From the NCBI GenBank assembly GCA_001799195.1, contig MGSU01000189.1, positions 1,174 to 9,300 of the forward strand: a DNA stretch of 8,127 nt, read 5' to 3'. The notes beneath the pieces were generated by a model. That model made no database searches. It had not been told where the DNA came from and was given only the letters and a program-made list of their open reading frames with translations. Both the position numbers and the translations under genes were made by a program. This stretch comes from Deltaproteobacteria bacterium RIFOXYA12_FULL_61_11. Lineage in GTDB: Bacteria > Bdellovibrionota_F > JAHFAK01 > YA12-FULL-61-11. Shown here piece after piece: positions 1-8,127 of this stretch; within the stretch, counting starts at the first letter, position 1, and every line of letters begins with the position of its first letter.

Positions 1-14
1 ACCGGAGGACGCCG

Positions 15-422
15 ATGACCTCGCATCACCCTGCCATGCCCCACACGACCTATCCGACCTGTAGCGGCGTCGCTGACGCCGGGACGCACCGGGAGAGCGG
101 GAGCGACGACCCCGCGAGAAGGCCCAGCGTCCAGGTCAACGGGCGCCAGCTCATCGCGATCATCGAGGACGCGTGGCGGGCGGTCCACGCCGCAAACGAC
201 CCACCCTTCCTCTTCTCCCGTGACGGAAGGCTCGTCCGCCAGACCTGCCTGAGCGGGCGGGCCCACGTCGTGCCGATCAACGCCGCCGAGCTGTACGGCA
301 TCCTCGTTCGCGTCGCCGACTGGGTGAGGGCAACGTCGAGCGGCCCCGTTCCCGCAAGGCCGCCCCGCGCGGTGGCCGCCGACATGCGCCGGTTCCCGGA
401 CGCCAGCATCCCCAAGCTGTAG
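15..422 (+). CDS. Short protein resembling the N-terminal module of phage primase/helicase-type proteins (possibly truncated)
   Basis: The 135-residue product has a polar, disordered-looking leader (about residues 1-38) and then a compact segment with VNGRQL (about 41-46), an acidic helix, NDPPFLFSRDGRLVRQ, and a C-terminal helix ending in ADWVR. From memory, this pattern (NGRQL, then NDPP-LF-R-G-LVR, then ADW-R and a proline-rich link) matches the start of large phage proteins related to primase/helicase replication enzymes. Those continue for several hundred residues. Here the frame stops at IPKL, with no Walker or primase motifs, so this is either a stand-alone domain or a decayed gene. 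The start is supported by GGAGG at 4-8, six bases before the ATG. The protein lies just upstream of the repeat-rich non-coding region, which would fit a replication-linked role. The family link is inference. Confidence 0.6.
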   Translation: MTSHHPAMPHTTYPTCSGVADAGTHRESGSDDPARRPSVQVNGRQLIAIIEDAWRAVHAANDPPFLFSRDGRLVRQTCLSGRAHVVPINAAELYGILVRVADWVRATSSGPVPARPPRAVAADMRRFPDASIPKL

Positions 423-445
423 CTACAACTCGATCGCGCAGGCCT

Positions 446-461
446 CCGCCACCACCGGCGG
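446..461 (+). terminator. Small GC hairpin after the first gene, weak terminator candidate
   Basis: CCGCC (446-450) and GGCGG (457-461) form a 5-bp stem with a six-base loop, starting 24 bases after the stop of the first gene. No T-run follows, so it lacks the second half of an intrinsic terminator. It could be only a chance hairpin in GC-rich DNA. Confidence 0.2.
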
Positions 462-567
462 GCGCTGTCTCGGCGCATCGTCCCCCACGCCTCGTGGAAA
501 GCGTGACGGCACTCGTGCGGCCTGCCTCCATGCGGCGCGACGACCCCGAGGCCGTCCTCCGCTCGCC

Positions 568-633
568 GGAGGTGTATCTGAGGTGCATCTTGATGGGCGA
601 AAGGTGCATCTCGTCTACGCCAGATACACCTCC
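568..633. repeat. Perfect 13-bp inverted repeat enclosing two further motif copies
   Basis: GGAGGTGTATCTG at 568-580 is exactly matched by its reverse complement CAGATACACCTCC at 621-633. The 40 bp between them carry two single-orientation copies of the same core motif. As RNA this could form a stem with a large loop. As DNA it presents four protein sites in a symmetric-ended array. Confidence 0.7.
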
Positions 634-863
634 CCAAGTGCCTGCTTTTCCTTCACGTTCTCTTCGAAGGTGGATCTGGTGGATCTGGTTTGGAACCCTG
701 AGCAGATAAATGGGCTGCACGATGTCGTGTCACGTGATCATGAAAATATAGAGGAGCTGGCGGCAGATACACCGAGATACACCTCACGTGGTGCGGGGGA
801 GCATATTCCCCTGCAGTAACAATGACTTCTGCCGCAACTCCCGTCCGGAAGCAGATCCACCTC
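568..863. repeat. Cluster of nine iteron-like or operator-like 9-bp motifs
   Basis: The motif GGTG(T/C/G)ATCT occurs on the plus strand with its first G at 571, 582, 603, 669 and 678, and on the minus strand (as AGAT-N-CACC) at 622-630, 765-773, 775-783 and 853-861. Several spacings are close to whole helical turns (11, 21, 9 and 10 bp), so the copies would face the same side of the DNA. The outermost copies of the left group form a perfect 13-bp inverted repeat (568-580 and 621-633) enclosing two further copies. I saw no such cluster elsewhere in the window. Multiple phased copies next to an AT-richer patch are typical of replication iterons or of cooperative repressor sites. Which of these it is cannot be told from sequence alone. 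Confidence 0.75.
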
Positions 864-993
864 TCCCGGCCTTGCCACGAACGACGTGATGCCGCCGTAG
901 CGTCGACCGCTTCCGACACATCCTCAACGCCGCCGGTAGGTATCCGGTGAACGCCGCCGCTCGAGCGGCAGGCACTACCACCGGAGGTCGCCC

Positions 994-1203
994 ATGGCAT
1001 GGCCAAAGCTCATCAAGCGCACCGTCACCTGCCCGAAGTGCAGCTCCACCGCCCCGGTCGAGATGATCCATCAGCCGCACCAGCGCGTCGATGGCAACCG
1101 TGACCGCATCTACAAGTCGCTGACCTGGGCGGACTGCCCGAAGTGCGGCCACGAGTGGGAGCTGCGCGACGGCCCGAGCCAGGAGCGAGTCGACGCCGAA
1201 TGA
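994..1203 (+). CDS. Small zinc-ribbon protein
   Basis: The 69-residue product has two CPKC knuckles, at residues 13-16 and 48-51 (the second as CPKCGHEW), separated by a 31-residue basic and polar linker. Four cysteines in two CxxC pairs are the standard metal site of a zinc ribbon, a fold often used to bind nucleic acid or protein partners. The start is supported by GGAGGT at 983-988, five bases before the ATG. Its TGA overlaps the ATG of the next gene (ATGA), so the two are probably translationally coupled. That neighbour looks like a sigma factor, so a role in transcription control is possible, but the specific function is unknown. Confidence 0.75.
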   Translation: MAWPKLIKRTVTCPKCSSTAPVEMIHQPHQRVDGNRDRIYKSLTWADCPKCGHEWELRDGPSQERVDAE

Positions 1204-2066
1204 GCACCACTTTCCGCCGGCTCTTCAAGGATCTCCGCGCCGAGGTCCGGGCGTCGAAGCACACCGCGTGCTTCCAGGACGCGAGATGCCGGCATGCGGC
1301 TCTGGCCCGCCACCACACCATCGCCTCGGTGCTGGGCATCCTCGCCGACGAGGGCAAGAAACCCTACGCCGAGAAGGAGGCGCTCACCCGCGCGCTCATC
1401 GCCGAGCAGCAGGCCAGCCCGAACTCGTTCTGGGCGTCGGTGCTGCTCGTTGCCTTCTACCCGATGCTCAGCCGCCTGCGGCATCGGATCTGGGGCGACA
1501 CCATCCCGACCGAGGACCTCGACCAGCTCGTCGTCACCTGCTTCCTTGCGGTGGTCGACGAGTATCCCGTCGATGGCCGCCTCGACCGCACGGCGCTGCG
1601 GTTGCGGCAACGCACCGAGCGTCGGGTCTTCGGCGTCGTCCGCCGCGAGCAGGAGGAGCGACAGCAGGTGACCTCCGTCGATCCCGATACCTTCGAGGAC
1701 CTCGAGGTTGAGCGGTGGCCGGAGGTGCGGGACGAGAGCCCTCGCGGCCCGCGCAACGCAGCCGAGGCCGCGGACGTCGTCTCGCTCCTGGTCGAGCGCG
1801 CCGGGGACAAGCTCGACGGCGAGACCTTCGACCTGGTGACCGCGACTATCGTCTGCGGCCGGCGAATCCCGGTCTTCCTCGATCGATTGCTGCCCGACCT
1901 GCCGTCGGACGAGAAGGACCGGGTCTACCAGCGCGTGAAGCGGCGCCACAGCCGGGCGCTGAAACGCATCCGCCCCGTGCTCGAGCACCTCCGCTGTCCC
2001 TGCAAGGACCACGAGGGGCTTTGCTCCGGCAGAGACCCCGAGTTGCAGGAGGACATCGAGCGATGA
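1200..2066 (+). CDS. Sigma-70-like helix-turn-helix protein, candidate phage transcription regulator
   Basis: The 288-residue product has two parts that resemble sigma-70 family regions. Residues about 80-150 form a helical segment (FYPMLSRLRHRIWGD, then EDLDQLVVTCFLAVVDEY, then an arginine-rich helix RLRQRTERRVFGVVRRE) like region 2. Residues about 205-260 (LDGETFDLVTATIVCGRRI followed by a basic helix VYQRVKRRHSRALKRIR) resemble region 4, the -35-binding helix-turn-helix. A cysteine cluster at 266, 268 and 275 near the C terminus is unusual and may bind metal. I chose the ATG at 1200 because it overlaps the upstream stop as ATGA; AGGAG at 1181-1185 is a somewhat distant ribosome site. An upstream in-frame start at 1143 lies inside the zinc-ribbon gene and is less likely. 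Phages often use sigma-like proteins to switch on late genes, which is the likely role here by inference. Confidence 0.7.
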   Translation: MSTTFRRLFKDLRAEVRASKHTACFQDARCRHAALARHHTIASVLGILADEGKKPYAEKEALTRALIAEQQASPNSFWASVLLVAFYPMLSRLRHRIWGDTIPTEDLDQLVVTCFLAVVDEYPVDGRLDRTALRLRQRTERRVFGVVRREQEERQQVTSVDPDTFEDLEVERWPEVRDESPRGPRNAAEAADVVSLLVERAGDKLDGETFDLVTATIVCGRRIPVFLDRLLPDLPSDEKDRVYQRVKRRHSRALKRIRPVLEHLRCPCKDHEGLCSGRDPELQEDIER

Positions 2067-2305
2067 CCACCCAGGAACCAAGAGCCGTGATGGCCAAAGC
2101 CTTCCGCGAGACCACGCTCAGCCTGATCGGGCTGTTCCAGATCTATGAGGTGGACCCCGAGCTGGCGGACGCGACCGCCGATGCGCTCGGGCGCCTGTTC
2201 CGCCGGCACCTGTGCCAGACCGCGGCCAGCTCGGACGGGGACCGCCGCTCGCCGCTCCATGCGCTCGTGGACGAGATGGATCGAGTTTTGGGCAGGACCC
2301 TGTGA
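2063..2305 (+). CDS. Small helical protein of unknown function
   Basis: I do not recognise this 80-residue protein. It is predicted to be mostly helical, with an amphipathic segment around residues 10-50 ([32 protein letters not shown]) and a second helix at about 64-77. It has no signal peptide and no clear membrane span. It starts with an ATGA overlap with the sigma-like gene and has a strong AGGAGG at 2047-2052, so it is very likely translated as part of the same operon. It precedes the putative small terminase gene with little or no gap. Confidence 0.7.
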
Positions 2306-2316
2306 GGCAGCGGACT

Positions 2317-3186
2317 ATGGACGACTCGGGCAACTCGGGACGCAAGACGGGCCGGCCCAAGAAGGGCGATGGGCCGCGCGTACCCTACGACGAGCTCGAC
2401 CGGGTGCTCGTGTTCGGCGAGGTCGTGCAGACCGACGAAGGCGGCACGAGCATCGTCTACCCCTCGTACCGGGATCTCGCCCAGCGCTACAACGTGGCGC
2501 ACAGCCTGGTCGCTCAGTACGCCCGCAAGCACGACTGCCTCCGGCGGCGCAAGGAGGCGAAGGCCCGCGTCGCGGTCAAGGCCGAGCAGAAGATCGTGGA
2601 GATGCGCGCGACCGCCATCGCCCTGTCGAAGGACGACGCGCTGCGGATGATCGACACCTACCTCGTGGGCTTCGAGAAGTCGCTCTCCGAGGGCCGCGTG
2701 CGCTTCGACAACCCGACCGACTTCAACACCATGCTCCGGCTCAAGGAGTTCATCCTGGGCGGGGCCGACTCGCGACAGGAGATCCACGCGGCGCTATCGC
2801 TCGAGGACATCCAGTCCCGCCACCAGCGGATGCTGCGGGCAGCGCAGCAGGCCTCGGCCGAGGAGCGCGGCGAGGTGCTCGACGTGTTGCCCTCGGAGGA
2901 CTCCGAAACAATTGACCGCTATTTGCCCGGAAACTCCCCGGCGACCCCGAGCGAGGCTGCCGCCGGAGAAGTGCCCGGTCACTTCCGAGAGGCGGCGCCG
3001 GTGGTCTCGGCGCGCCAGGGTGCCGCGTGTCGCGCCGAGGATCGGAGAGCGGACGACGAGGCCAGGGACCGCGGACGCGCGCCACACGCGGCGAACGTGG
3101 CGCCCACGGGGCCAAGCTCCGGGCCGGACGAGCCCGCGACCCCCGTCAGAGACGAGGAAGGCACGAAGAAGAGGGGAACACGATGA
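2317..3186 (+). CDS. Helix-turn-helix protein, probable terminase small subunit
   Basis: The 289-residue product has a basic N terminus with GRPKKG (residues 12-17), then a helix-turn-helix-like segment at about 48-80 ([20 protein letters not shown], then [13 protein letters not shown]), a long charged helix at about 80-125, and [18 protein letters not shown] at about 132-149. The DNA-binding head followed by a helical oligomerisation part ending in a 'RLKEF-LGG' stretch is like small terminase subunits, which recognise the packaging site and pass DNA to the large subunit. The C-terminal third (about 205-289) is rich in Ala, Arg, Pro and Glu and has weaker third-position GC than the rest, so it may be disordered or derived from joined DNA. 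The start could instead be GTG at 2302, which overlaps the previous stop as GTGA. The ribosome site is weak either way. A plain DNA-binding regulator is the alternative. Confidence 0.6.
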
Positions 3187-3698
3187 GCGCGCACGAACCC
3201 TCGCGACACCACGAGTCTCCGCGCCCACAGTCTCGAGCACAGCCCCAGCGCAGGCAGGCTCGCGGAAGAACACGACGGCCACCTCGATCCACCCGCTCCG
3301 GCGGGCGCCGAACCAGGCCTGGCCAACCGCCGACAACAGACAAAAGCGGCCATTGGCTCGCCTGGCGCTCACGGAATTACGCGGGGTTGCGCCGTGCCAG
3401 AGGCCAGCCCCGCGCCGAGTCGAACCGCCGGTTTCCTCGGCTTCGCCCGGGCGGGGGCGAGGCAGGGCTCAGGCAAGCCGCAGGTCGAGCCCGACCAGGG
3501 GGGGGCGGGTCCGACTTTCGGCGCCGAACACCTACACCGCCAGGGTGCCTGGGGCCGATTACGACTGCGCCAGTTTTCGGAAAGTGGGCGGGGGTCACGA
3601 TGAGAAGTGAACAGCAGCCGGATCGGGCTCGCACAGGGCGAGTGTGCAATTTCGATCTGCAAGTAGGTCCGCGCACGATCGGATCGCCCGGGCGACGC
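3187..3698. other. Stretch without a convincing gene, between the helix-turn-helix gene and the recombinase
   Basis: A frame opens with ATG at 3183 (ATGA overlap, GAGGGG upstream) and stays open to 4409. It encodes arginine/proline-rich, low-complexity sequence and then runs fully antisense to the recombinase, so I do not call it. The region has long G-runs (about 3449-3460 and 3499-3511), a 12-bp palindrome next to the recombinase stop, and the inverted repeat GCACA/TGTGC at 3631-3647. I checked for a tRNA at the GTTCGA motif seen on the minus strand near 3420: the bases around it do not make a T-stem. The location next to a recombinase makes this the first place to look for an attachment site. 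Confidence 0.5.
3684..3695. repeat. 12-bp perfect palindrome just past the recombinase stop
   Basis: TCGCCCGGGCGA reads the same on both strands and lies three bases beyond the stop codon of the minus-strand recombinase. It has no loop and no T-run, so it is a poor terminator as it stands. It could be part of a recombination or protein-binding site, or a chance palindrome in GC-rich DNA. Confidence 0.4.
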
Positions 3699-4310
3699 TC
3701 AACACGGCAGGTCGCGCACGGCTCGCAGGATGTCCTCGTCCGAGGGACCGGCGTAGCGGATCGTGCTGGTGATGCTCTTGTGCCGAGCGACGCGCTGCGT
3801 GAGGCGGATGTCCCGGGTGCTGCGGTAGACATTGGTCAGGGACGAGTGCCGCATGGAGTGGAACGACAGCACGCGCTCGAACCCGGCGCGCTCCTGCCAG
3901 ACGTGGAAGAGGTTGCGGAGCTGGCGGCTGGAGAGCCGCAGCCCGCGGCGGCTGACGAACAGCGGCGCATCAGGCTCCAGCCCCTCTCCCCGCTGCTTCT
4001 TCCAGCGCCAGAGCTTCTCCAGCTTGGCCCGCAGCGGGTCGGGCAGCACGACCTCCTGCATGGACTCGTCGTCGTTGCTTCGCTTGAACACGCGGAGCTG
4101 GACGCGGCGGCGAGCCTTGCCCTCGACGCCGAACACGTCGCCGACGTTCAGGGCGAGAAGCTCGGCCTCGCGCAGTGCGGTGCCCAGGGCGAAGCTCAGC
4201 AGCACGTGGTCCCTGAAGCCGCGGGCATGCTCGCCCGTGACCTTGAGGAGCCGCGCCTGCTCGGCGTCGGTCAGGGTCCTCGGGGTGCGGGTGGACTCGG
4301 CGTAGCTCAT
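3699..4310 (-). CDS. Minimal tyrosine recombinase/integrase (catalytic domain only)
   Basis: The 203-residue product is a complete catalytic domain of the tyrosine recombinase family, which cuts and rejoins DNA through a covalent 3'-phosphotyrosine. The active-site residues are present in order: Arg47 in LREAEL, Lys76 in the beta-hairpin region, His151 and Arg154 in HSMR, His177 in ARHKS, and Tyr186 in [10 protein letters not shown]. The usual N-terminal core-binding domain of about 100 residues is absent: the protein begins only some 15 residues before the catalytic fold. FimB/FimE-type invertases of about 200 residues have the same layout. The start is fixed by an excellent ribosome site. 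The gene faces away from the large terminase and lies between it and the putative small terminase. It may integrate the phage, resolve dimers or invert a segment; the sequence does not say which. Confidence 0.95.
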
Positions 4311-4313
4311 GAC

Positions 4314-4323
4314 ATCACCTCCT
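4314..4323 (-). promoter_or_regulatory. Near-ideal ribosome binding site of the recombinase gene
   Basis: On the minus strand, AGGAGGTGAT matches the full 10-base complement of the usual bacterial 16S rRNA 3' end and lies three bases before the ATG (seven counted from GGAGG). This fixes the start of the recombinase and suggests efficient translation whenever the message is made. Confidence 0.8.
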
Positions 4324-4391
4324 GTTGGTCGCTCGTCACGCTCACATGCAGGCGTTCAACCGCCGGAAAGGCAAGGCGAAAGGCGGTTCGA

Positions 4392-4398
4392 GAAGGGG
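4392..4398 (+). promoter_or_regulatory. Ribosome binding site that favours the GTG start of the large terminase
   Basis: GAAGGGG lies seven bases before GTG at 4406. The upstream in-frame ATG at 4346 is preceded by a pyrimidine-rich stretch without any Shine-Dalgarno-like bases. This is the main reason for choosing the later start. Confidence 0.45.
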
Positions 4399-4405
4399 CG
4401 GCGCC

Positions 4406-5842
4406 GTGACGCTCGGCATCGTCAAACGGACCGAGGAGGAGTTCGCCGAGTGGCTGGCCCAGGAGTGGGGCTTCCTTTGCGGCCTCGGCTCCTTCGATGA
4501 CGAGCCCCTGGTGCTCGAGCCCTACCAGATCGCGTTCCTGGAGAACCGCTCCCGCTTCCGCTGGATCACCAAGAGCCGCCAGGTGGGCTTCTCGTTCCTG
4601 TTCGCGCTCGAGGCTCTGGCCAGGTGCCACCTGCGGGAGAAGCACACCGCGGTCTTTGTCAGCTACAACCTCGACGACGCCAAGGAGAAGATCCTGGCCG
4701 CGCGCCAGGTCCACGAGGAGCTACCGCTCGCGTACCAGAAGCGACTCGTCGTGGACTCGAAAACCGAGCTCGCCTTCGAGTCGAACGGCCCGGGCAAGCG
4801 GGTCTCGCGCATCCTGTCGAACCCGTCCAAGGCGCCGCGCGGCAAGAAGGGCGACTGCTACCTCGACGAGCTGGCGCACTACGTCAACGATCGCGAGGTC
4901 TACCGCGGCTCGACCGCGCTCATCCTGCGCTCGTTCGGCCAACTCTCGGGCTGCTCCACGCCGCTCGGTCGGCGCGGCATCTTCTGGGAGATCGCCACCG
5001 AGGAGCTGCGCAAGTACCCCCACCACACCCGACAGGATGTCCCGTGGTGGCTGTGCCGGTTCTTCTGCAACGACGTCGCACGGGCATCGGTCGAGGCGGC
5101 GCACTTGCCCACCGATGAGCGGGTCGCCACGTTCGGCCGGCAGACCCTCATCGAGCAGCTCGACTCCCTGCCGCTCGACGACTTCCAGCAGGAGTTCGAG
5201 TGCCGCTTCGTGGACGAGAGCTACAGCTTCTATCCCTACGACCTGATCCTGCCCTGCACGAGTGACGAGCTGGTGCTCTGTGACGACGCCACCGATCTGC
5301 CGCTGCCGGACGGGCGGATCGTGGCGGGCTTCGACGTGGGCCGGACTCGGGATCGCTCCGAGCTGGCGGTGTTCGAGGAGAAGGACGGACGCTTCGTCTG
5401 CCGGTTGCTCAGGCGCTACGAGCAGGTGCCGTTCTCCGAACAGGAGGCCGATCTGCGGCGGCTGCTCGACACCGTGCCCGTGTCACGGCTGTCCGTGGAC
5501 AAGAGCGGCATCGGCATGAACCTCGCCGAGAACCTGGCCCGCGACTACCCGCAGGTCGTGGCCGAGGCCTTCAGCAACGAGTCCAAGGAGCGCTGGGCCA
5601 CGGACTTCAAGATCCTTCTCCAGCGCAAGGACATCGTGCTGCCGCGCGACCGCGAGCTGGTCGGGCAGGTCCACTCGATCAAGCGCCGGGTGCTGCCGTC
5701 CGGCAAGGTGAGCTTCGATGCCGAGCGCAGCGCCCGCGGCGGACACGCCGACCGCTTCTGGGCGATCGCGCTCGCCTGCCAGAAGGAGCGCGGCCCGGCC
5801 CCCTCGCGCACCACCGAGATCGGGGTGCGGGTGATCGGGTAG
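4406..5842 (+). CDS. terL: Phage terminase large subunit (packaging ATPase and nuclease)
   Basis: This motor cuts concatemeric phage DNA and pumps it through the portal into the empty head. With the GTG start the product has 478 residues. The ATPase part carries KSRQVGFS at 56-63, a deviant Walker A in which the lysine sits at the start of the loop rather than before the last Ser/Thr (as in lambda-type terminases), and CYLDEL at 151-156 as Walker B with the catalytic Glu. The RNase H-like nuclease follows, with acidic residues in [10 protein letters not shown] (Asp310), SVDKSGIG (Asp365) and GGHADRF (Asp449). I prefer GTG at 4406, which has GAAGGGG at 4392-4398 and leaves 95 bp for divergent promoters. 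ATG at 4346 or TTG at 4325 would add a short basic tail but lack a ribosome site. Its usual partner lies upstream, beyond the recombinase. Confidence 0.93.
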
Positions 5843-5845
5843 CCC

Positions 5846-5877
5846 CTGTCCCCGCTGAGGGCGTCTCGGGCTTTGCC
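5846..5877 (+). repeat. 32-bp intercistronic element, copy 1
   Basis: The element starts with CTGTCCCCGCTG and ends with GGCTTTGCC, separated by 11 variable bases. It lies three bases after the stop of the large terminase. A second copy with the same ends and exactly the same spacing lies directly after the stop of the next gene (6078-6109). Conserved ends with a free middle suggest a binding or processing site, or a duplication of a leader together with a small gene. Confidence 0.6.
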
Positions 5878-5900
5878 TCCCTGGAACCAACTCCGGGAGG
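5876..5900 (+). promoter_or_regulatory. Hairpin that hides the ribosome binding site of the holin-like gene
   Basis: CCTCCC at 5876-5881 pairs perfectly with GGGAGG at 5895-5900 across a 13-base loop. GGGAGG is the ribosome binding site of the ATG at 5907. Six consecutive strong pairs would reduce initiation, so this is a candidate translational brake on a gene whose product would be harmful if made early. Confidence 0.45.
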
Positions 5901-5906
5901 TGCGTC

Positions 5907-6077
5907 ATGAAGTCCTGGTACGAGAGCAAGACCATCTGGCTGGGCGTCGCGACGATCGCGACGGCGCTCGTCTCCGCGCTGGTCGGCGGGGCTGGCTGGC
6001 AGGAGGCGGTGATCGCCGCCATCGGCGCGGCCAACGTCTACCTGCGGACCCAGACGGAGAAGCCGCTCACCAAGTAG
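5907..6077 (+). CDS. Small holin-like membrane protein
   Basis: The 56-residue product begins MKSWYESKTIWLGV, continues as a hydrophobic stretch at about residues 10-29 (IWLGVATIATALVSALVGG), then a second mildly hydrophobic helix (about 33-46, EAVIAAIGAANVYL) and a basic tail LRTQTEKPLTK. The layout 'SKT-W', one membrane helix, then 'A-N-(V/I)-LR--T--P' is like many small phage proteins annotated as putative holins or unknown membrane proteins. Holins open the inner membrane to time lysis. Placement between the terminase and portal genes, without an endolysin in view, makes the lysis role uncertain. The gene has GGGAGG at 5895-5900 and a clear ATG. The family resemblance is from memory. Confidence 0.7.
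   Translation: MKSWYESKTIWLGVATIATALVSALVGGAGWQEAVIAAIGAANVYLRTQTEKPLTK

Positions 6078-6427: not shown

Positions 6428-6431
<4 letters not shown>
6222..6431 (+). CDS. Small protein of unknown function between holin-like and portal genes
   Basis: I do not recognise this 69-residue protein. It opens with a beta-strand-like stretch (RTVKVFVIPPG), then a Pro/Gly-rich linker, then strand-helix-strand (QMVVEAKSVDALRDAARAKL, then YRVRSLSCGP, then LVVYVEA), suggesting a small alpha/beta fold. It has no membrane segment. The ribosome site AGGAGGAGG at 6211-6219 is strong. The stop overlaps the portal start as GTGA, so portal translation is probably coupled to it. Confidence 0.75.

Positions 6432-8127
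<1,696 letters not shown>

Follow-up and report, generated by a model that had tools for sequence, protein, structure and literature searches.

The repeat array and the genes around it

We analyzed a stretch of 8,127 nucleotides (the window) from Deltaproteobacteria bacterium RIFOXYA12_FULL_61_11, covering positions 1174-9300 of a contig of 11,322 bases (C189) in a fragmented assembly of 4.64 Mb and 342 contigs (G000). Its central feature is a cluster of short repeats at 571-861, annotated here, with no strand assigned, as a putative replication origin array of nine 9-bp initiator-site repeats laid out on a P4-type plan. The motif GGTGBATCT has nine exact copies in the window, all in this interval, five on the plus and four on the minus strand, against an expected number of 0.11; none of 200 dinucleotide shuffles gave nine or more copies. 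An earlier note on this DNA had described a nine-copy GGTG(T/C/G)ATCT array in both orientations that occurs nowhere else in the window, and all nine copies were recovered.

The left half starts with three plus-strand sites, i.e., repeat 1 (GGTGTATCT, 571-579), repeat 2 (GGTGCATCT, 582-590) and repeat 3 (GGTGCATCT, 603-611). These are followed by repeat 4 on the minus strand (GGTGTATCT, 622-630), the sole inverted site in this half, then by a spacer (631-668) and by the plus-strand repeats 5 and 6 (both GGTGGATCT, 669-677 and 678-686). The right half consists of minus-strand repeats 7 and 8 (both GGTGTATCT, 765-773 and 775-783) and repeat 9 (GGTGGATCT, 853-861). Start-to-start steps of 9, 10, 11 and 21 bp occur in the array, so several copies share one helix face, in agreement with the helical-turn phasing noticed earlier. 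The perfect 13-bp inverted repeat that had been reported (568-580 and 621-633) is real, and is formed simply by copies 1 and 4 with matching flanks. The AT-richer patch was also recovered: G+C falls from about 70% to 47% mid-array (0.47 at window positions 651-750, contig positions 1824-1923), and the AT-richer centre that separates both halves (687-764) is a candidate strand-opening region. Open reading frames (ORFs) of 71-78 amino acids spanning the array region look spurious.

Equal frequency of the motif elsewhere had been set beforehand as a possible refutation, and was not observed. The whole 4.64-Mb genome holds 126 occurrences of GGTGNATCT, which outside the array amounts to about one per 40 kb, and no second cluster was seen among the genome places listed. 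A search of phage records with the nucleotide sequence of the array gave no match. The 11.3-kb contig carries this one array, with no separate crr-like array in it; the remainder of the phage lies beyond the contig.

Just upstream of the window, before a gap of 41 N, lies the AAA helicase and C-terminal part of a primase-helicase (contig positions 1-1132; locus L009, positions 1-1131), with matches to phrog_29234 (E 5e-58) and to phrog_19930, 'DNA polymerase/primase' (E 2e-23). The latter match covers the helicase part only, and the N-terminal part of the protein is beyond the contig. Inside the window, the plus-strand ORF at 3-422 had been called primase-like, which proved correct: it is a piece of a primase-helicase, apparently a truncated or duplicated fragment, and the region that precedes the helicase in the primase of viral contig L127 matches it at 34% identity (E 7e-11). 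Such a region normally stands in front of the helicase, whereas the fragment lies behind it. Its position behind a helicase part of the same type, across the gap, could reflect a partial duplication or an assembly artefact.

Past the array, the first gene encodes a zinc-ribbon protein (994-1203, plus strand; profile matches below cut-offs). The next product (1200-2066, plus strand) had been labelled sigma-like, a label that found no support: the protein matches phrog_36246 (function unknown), a search against Pfam and NCBIfam gave no sigma profile match, and tblastn against phage isolates gave no match either. It is conserved in myxobacterial prophages, and we keep 'sigma-like' only as a name. 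Further along are genes for a helix-turn-helix (HTH) protein in a small-terminase-like position (2317-3186, plus strand, phrog_32085), a short tyrosine recombinase or integrase (3699-4310, minus strand), the terminase large subunit (4346-5842, plus strand) and a portal protein that continues past the window end (6428-8125, plus strand). Terminase, portal and integrase are thus visible and tail genes would lie beyond the contig, so that the element itself may be either a phage or a satellite.

Comparable arrays in P4 and in related phages

The earlier note had found no match to a known control region. The orientation and spacing of the sites do fit the P4 'ori type 1 repeats' (GGTGAACA), annotated at 9310-9413 of the P4 record. 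On the plus strand these repeats run + + + - + + at 0, 10, 21, 43, 86 and 96, the last pair being preceded by an AT-rich spacer, and window sites 1-6 run + + + - + + at 0, 11, 32, 51, 98 and 107. In a Monte Carlo comparison with random nine-site arrays, the fit of all six sites within 12 bp had P = 0.005 and that of five of the six within 6 bp had P = 0.034. Both systems thus have 8-9-bp repeats (GGTGAACA(G) in P4) at nearly equal spacings, with a single inverted site, a spacer and then a pair, the window spacer at 631-668 being less AT-rich than its P4 counterpart. In P4, the alpha gene is followed directly on its 3' side by crr, and the initiator is a primase-helicase whose C-terminal domain binds the origin (1ka8). 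The systems differ in that P4 ori and crr are 4.5 kb apart, whereas here two halves are joined into a mirror-symmetric array of about 290 bp. Furthermore, the window repeat is GGTGBATCTG, the window-type initiator is too distant in sequence for a Pfam match, and the relatives are full-size phages.

The organisation also resembles that of the origins of phage-inducible chromosomal islands (PICIs), in which the 3' end of the initiator gene is immediately followed by two iteron sets with an AT-rich region between them (PMC6092414). The origin of one E. coli PICI was tested by plasmid replication (PMC6092414). Two iteron sets around an AT-richer region are present in the window array and are clearer in its relatives. 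Rep-type iteron origins of plasmids likewise have short initiator repeats adjoining an AT-rich region, but classical iterons are direct repeats, whereas the window array has both orientations, a fixed mirror plan and a helicase-primase as probable initiator.

Relatives of the upstream primase-helicase were collected in two sets, of 3 and then 21 viral contigs, with two of the first three recurring among the 21. In most of these roughly 20 contigs an array lies inside or just 3' of the primase-helicase gene, with differing repeats; the cluster is therefore kept in most related phages, mostly with an altered repeat sequence. Location immediately 3' of the initiator gene is clear in L107, L108, L110-L112, L118 and L120-L128 except L124. 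The window's own motif, GGTG(T/C)ATCTG (GGTGTATCTG), recurs in the L111 and L112 arrays. Other contigs carry GGTGACTCTG (L108), TAGGGACTG (L107), GGGAGACTC (L109), GCGACTCTG (L110, L118 and L120), GATGTATTTG (L121), ACCCCGCA (L122 and L123), CAGGAGGT/CGGGAGGT (L125 and L126), TGCCGGGC (L127) and GGAAACGT (L128). The long plan is found in L109 and L125-L128, and a compact plan, [+ + +] ~75 AT-rich [- - -], in L108, L110-L112, L118 and L120. All nine window sites fit the plan of the distant phage contig L128 within 6 bp, which none of 500 random arrays did. In several of L107, L108, L110 and L111, a hairpin-like stretch (e.g., CCCCCTCGCGCGAGATGGGGG) lies between the iteron sets 3' of the primase gene; it could be a primase terminator or a part of the origin.

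Relatives of the sigma-like protein led to prophages of Myxococcus, Citreicoccus, Corallococcus and Archangium. In about a dozen of these prophages an unbiased k-mer cluster scan found one array of GTGGACAG or GTGGCAG, some 3.4 kb upstream of the sigma-like gene, with the mirror plan [+ + + -] ~42 [+ +] ~100 [- -] ~42 [+ - -]; at Archangium-type loci the arrays consist of GGACAG and are irregular. A single base separates the myxobacterial GGTGGACAG from P4 GGTGAACAG. The array lies between a left-going operon (326-aa protein, 137-aa protein, single-stranded DNA-binding protein (SSB), helicase and a 1063-aa primase-helicase) and a right-going operon (202-aa protein, PD-(D/E)XK exonuclease, DnaQ exonuclease, nuclease and the sigma-like protein). 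Two of the prophages, G065 (62.9 kb) and G075 (57.0 kb), encode portal, capsid and tape-measure proteins and so do not qualify as satellites.

Some further loci were noted in passing. On a Citreicoccus contig (L017, G029:C76), four origin-like arrays of the same plan occur within 4.5 kb (7220-7507, 8057-8336, 8853-9142 and 11440-11724); they use three repeats (GTGGACAG twice, GGTGGCAG and TGCCGGACTT), and the first three stand in tandem with similar flanks. They may be relics, or stacked origins that differ in specificity. At about 17707-19998 of L017, beside the integrase of the Citreicoccus island, are genes that by sequence appearance resemble a ubiquitin-like (E2/JAB/E1) defence set. In the bin of the window, a second related prophage (L100, G000:C2) showed no array in 15 kb; its positions 1-6029 encode sigma-like, nuclease, exonuclease and DnaG-like primase proteins at lower third-position G+C and possibly belong to another organism. 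A 134-kb background set gave a single cluster in which five or more exact 8-mers occur in both orientations, at L102, a locus itself picked via a primase match. There (G000:C157, 2597-2821) the same bin has another array (GTTGGAGG, - - + + - -) on a contig with a weak primase match.

The candidate initiator

To identify the protein that reads the array, we used ten myxobacterial prophages, seven with GTGGCAG and three with GTGGACAG (fewer sequences for some proteins), and counted the variable alignment columns that were class-fixed, i.e., that segregated with repeat type. For the 1063-aa primase, the class-fixed columns rise toward the C-terminus: 0 of 103 variable columns in residues 1-300, 2 of 64 in 301-588, 9 of 49 in 589-780, 12 of 54 in 781-920 and 31 of 61 in 921-1063, the last region with a hypergeometric P of 6e-13. 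Ten other nearby proteins (the two flanking the array, the 137-aa protein, SSB, helicase, exonuclease, DnaQ, sigma-like protein, integrase and small-terminase-like protein) had 0-2 such columns each. Within the left operon, no part lies farther from the array than the primase C-terminus, so the result is not accounted for by simple linkage. The sigma-like protein, with 0 of 71 variable columns, failed this segregation test as a candidate array binder. The earlier suggestion that the zinc-ribbon, sigma-like or HTH protein binds the array found no support: it is the primase C-terminus that varies with array type, while the sigma-like and small-terminase-like proteins do not.

The C-terminus of the primase-helicase upstream of the window aligns with those of L107, L108 and L111 across the helicase and a predicted winged helix. 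For the L111 helicase and C-terminus, a three-sequence AlphaFold model reached a predicted local distance difference test (pLDDT) score of only 37, and a 19-sequence model (pLDDT 86, predicted template modelling score 0.71) was used instead. The closest fold was Staphylococcus aureus pathogenicity island (SaPI) PriRep1 with double-stranded DNA (7pds; Z 14.2, 283 residues, root-mean-square deviation (rmsd) 8.6), followed by the SaPI5 primase-helicase (7ola; Z 13.9, 206 residues, rmsd 3.2). These nearest solved folds add to the likeness to the PICI/SaPI pri-rep-ori arrangement. African swine fever virus PrimPol, poxvirus D5/E5 and NrS-1 were further matches. In the model, the last 85 residues are arranged as helix-helix-helix-strand-strand, which is consistent with a winged helix. 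A profile search against PDB chains gave no match, and 1ka8 was not among the fold matches listed for a search made with the whole model. Judged from this model and the alignment, the candidate initiator is a D5/SF3-type helicase with a C-terminal DNA-binding domain, as at P4-type origins.

Across primases of the window's family, differences in the predicted recognition helix, G(N/S)xLRxxRRR, follow the repeat, a pattern recognized post hoc. RHF, RQF or RKF goes with GGTGTAT (window, L111, L112 and L114), RLF with GATGTATTTG (L121), RRF with GGTGAGTCTG (L117), KTF with GGTGACTCTG (L108), RAA, RTA or RAS with GCGACTCTG (L110, L118 and L120) and RHY with CTAGGGACTG (L107). A Mantel test of helix against repeat gave p = 0.09, and a partial Mantel test with helicase similarity controlled gave p = 0.035. 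Taken together, these results make it very probable that the primase-helicase reads the array and initiates replication.

Alternative explanations and the proposed origin

The earlier note had offered two readings, a replication origin or a many-site operator. In the operator case, a repressor or activator on the repeats would control a divergent or downstream operon (zinc ribbon, sigma-like protein, terminase). The 994-3186 operon does lie downstream of the array, and in the myxobacterial prophages the operons on either side of the array are transcribed divergently. However, no class-fixed columns were found in the sigma-like protein (0/71), the 326-aa neighbour with its weak HTH (0/183), the 202-aa neighbour (0/79) or the small-terminase-like protein (0/24), and in L107-L128 the array comes after the primase gene regardless of the downstream content. 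An operator is thus unlikely, and that half of the proposal found no support; the other half, a replication origin, is well supported. Integrase arm-type sites, i.e., a phage attachment site (attP) as in lambda or P4, have still less to recommend them. The window does encode a tyrosine recombinase (3699-4310), and the P4 attP arms are likewise short repeats in both orientations. The integrase gene is nevertheless 2.8 kb from the array, the P4 record annotates the attP arm repeats apart from the ori repeats that the window plan matches, and repeat type segregated with only 2 of 42 variable integrase columns in a small sample (4 vs 2 sequences).

A centromere-like partition site or a packaging site can also be a repeat cluster, and in L107 and L108 the array is followed by genes that look ParB-like. 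Near the window, though, no ParA/ParB pair was seen, the coupling is to the primase C-terminus and the plan equals that of P4 ori, so that we regard this as highly improbable. An equally slim chance is given to a structured RNA in which inverted copies, including the 13-bp perfect inverted repeat, pair as transcript stems. A search of Rfam gave no match up to E = 1, and one sequence is common to all array copies whereas stems need just pairwise complementarity; the conserved property is spacing, not pairing.

We conclude that the array very likely serves a temperate phage or prophage as a replication origin of the P4/PICI type, with a primase-helicase that would bind the nine sites via its C-terminal winged helix. 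This conclusion builds on the observed array, its P4 plan, its place near the primase gene and, in relatives, the way in which repeat type and the primase C-terminus segregate together. Several results weigh against it. No array was found at the thresholds used in relatives L124, L129 and L130 or in eight isolated phages whose primases are P4-like (L131-L138; Microbacterium, Streptomyces, Arthrobacter, Listeria, Klebsiella, Vibrio, Streptococcus and Sashavirus), so the coupling is not universal. The window array is separated from its primase-helicase by the 41-N gap and the fragment ORF, with the N-terminal part off the contig, and its right half is reduced to 3 sites, against 5 or 6 in the fullest relatives. 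The helix-repeat pattern was found after the fact. Finally, the window primase is of the phrog_29234 type and not of the same family as the myxobacterial primase, which means that the strongest segregation evidence applies to the window by analogy.

From P4 and PICI biology, a course of binding, strand opening and directional origin activity can be proposed. The phage's own primase-helicase, encoded upstream, would bind the nine 9-bp sites through its C-terminal winged helix, and the bound ring would be loaded onto the AT-richer centre, where the strands would be opened and the attached primase would begin DNA synthesis. The facing halves would suit head-to-head loading of two helicases and hence two-way replication.

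P4/PICI-type origins have been described as confined to satellites (PMC6092414). PICIs are satellites, whereas the myxobacterial relatives, prophages of 57-63 kb, encode portal, capsid and tape-measure proteins. The origin type is known from satellites, and here it occurs in full-size phages, in a mirror-symmetric form of about 290 bp. No description of a mirror-fused P4 plan was found in the literature searched, in which coverage of P4 alpha and crr is sparse. On balance, we favour the view that a widespread class of full-size tailed phages replicates from a mirror-symmetric double P4 origin, with two facing + + + - + + halves and an AT-richer centre. Its geometry would be fixed across distant phages, while the repeat would drift, or would be exchanged along with the winged helix at the C-terminus of the primase-helicase, so that every phage would have an origin of its own.

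With this plan present both in relatives of the window phage and in full-size myxobacterial prophages, a shared ancestry of satellite and phage replication modules suggests itself. Many repeats in one geometry, each beside its own primase-helicase, form a natural data set for how winged helices choose DNA sequences, and origin specificity thereby becomes directly testable via domain swaps. The plan also provides a simple rule to locate origins in unannotated phages.
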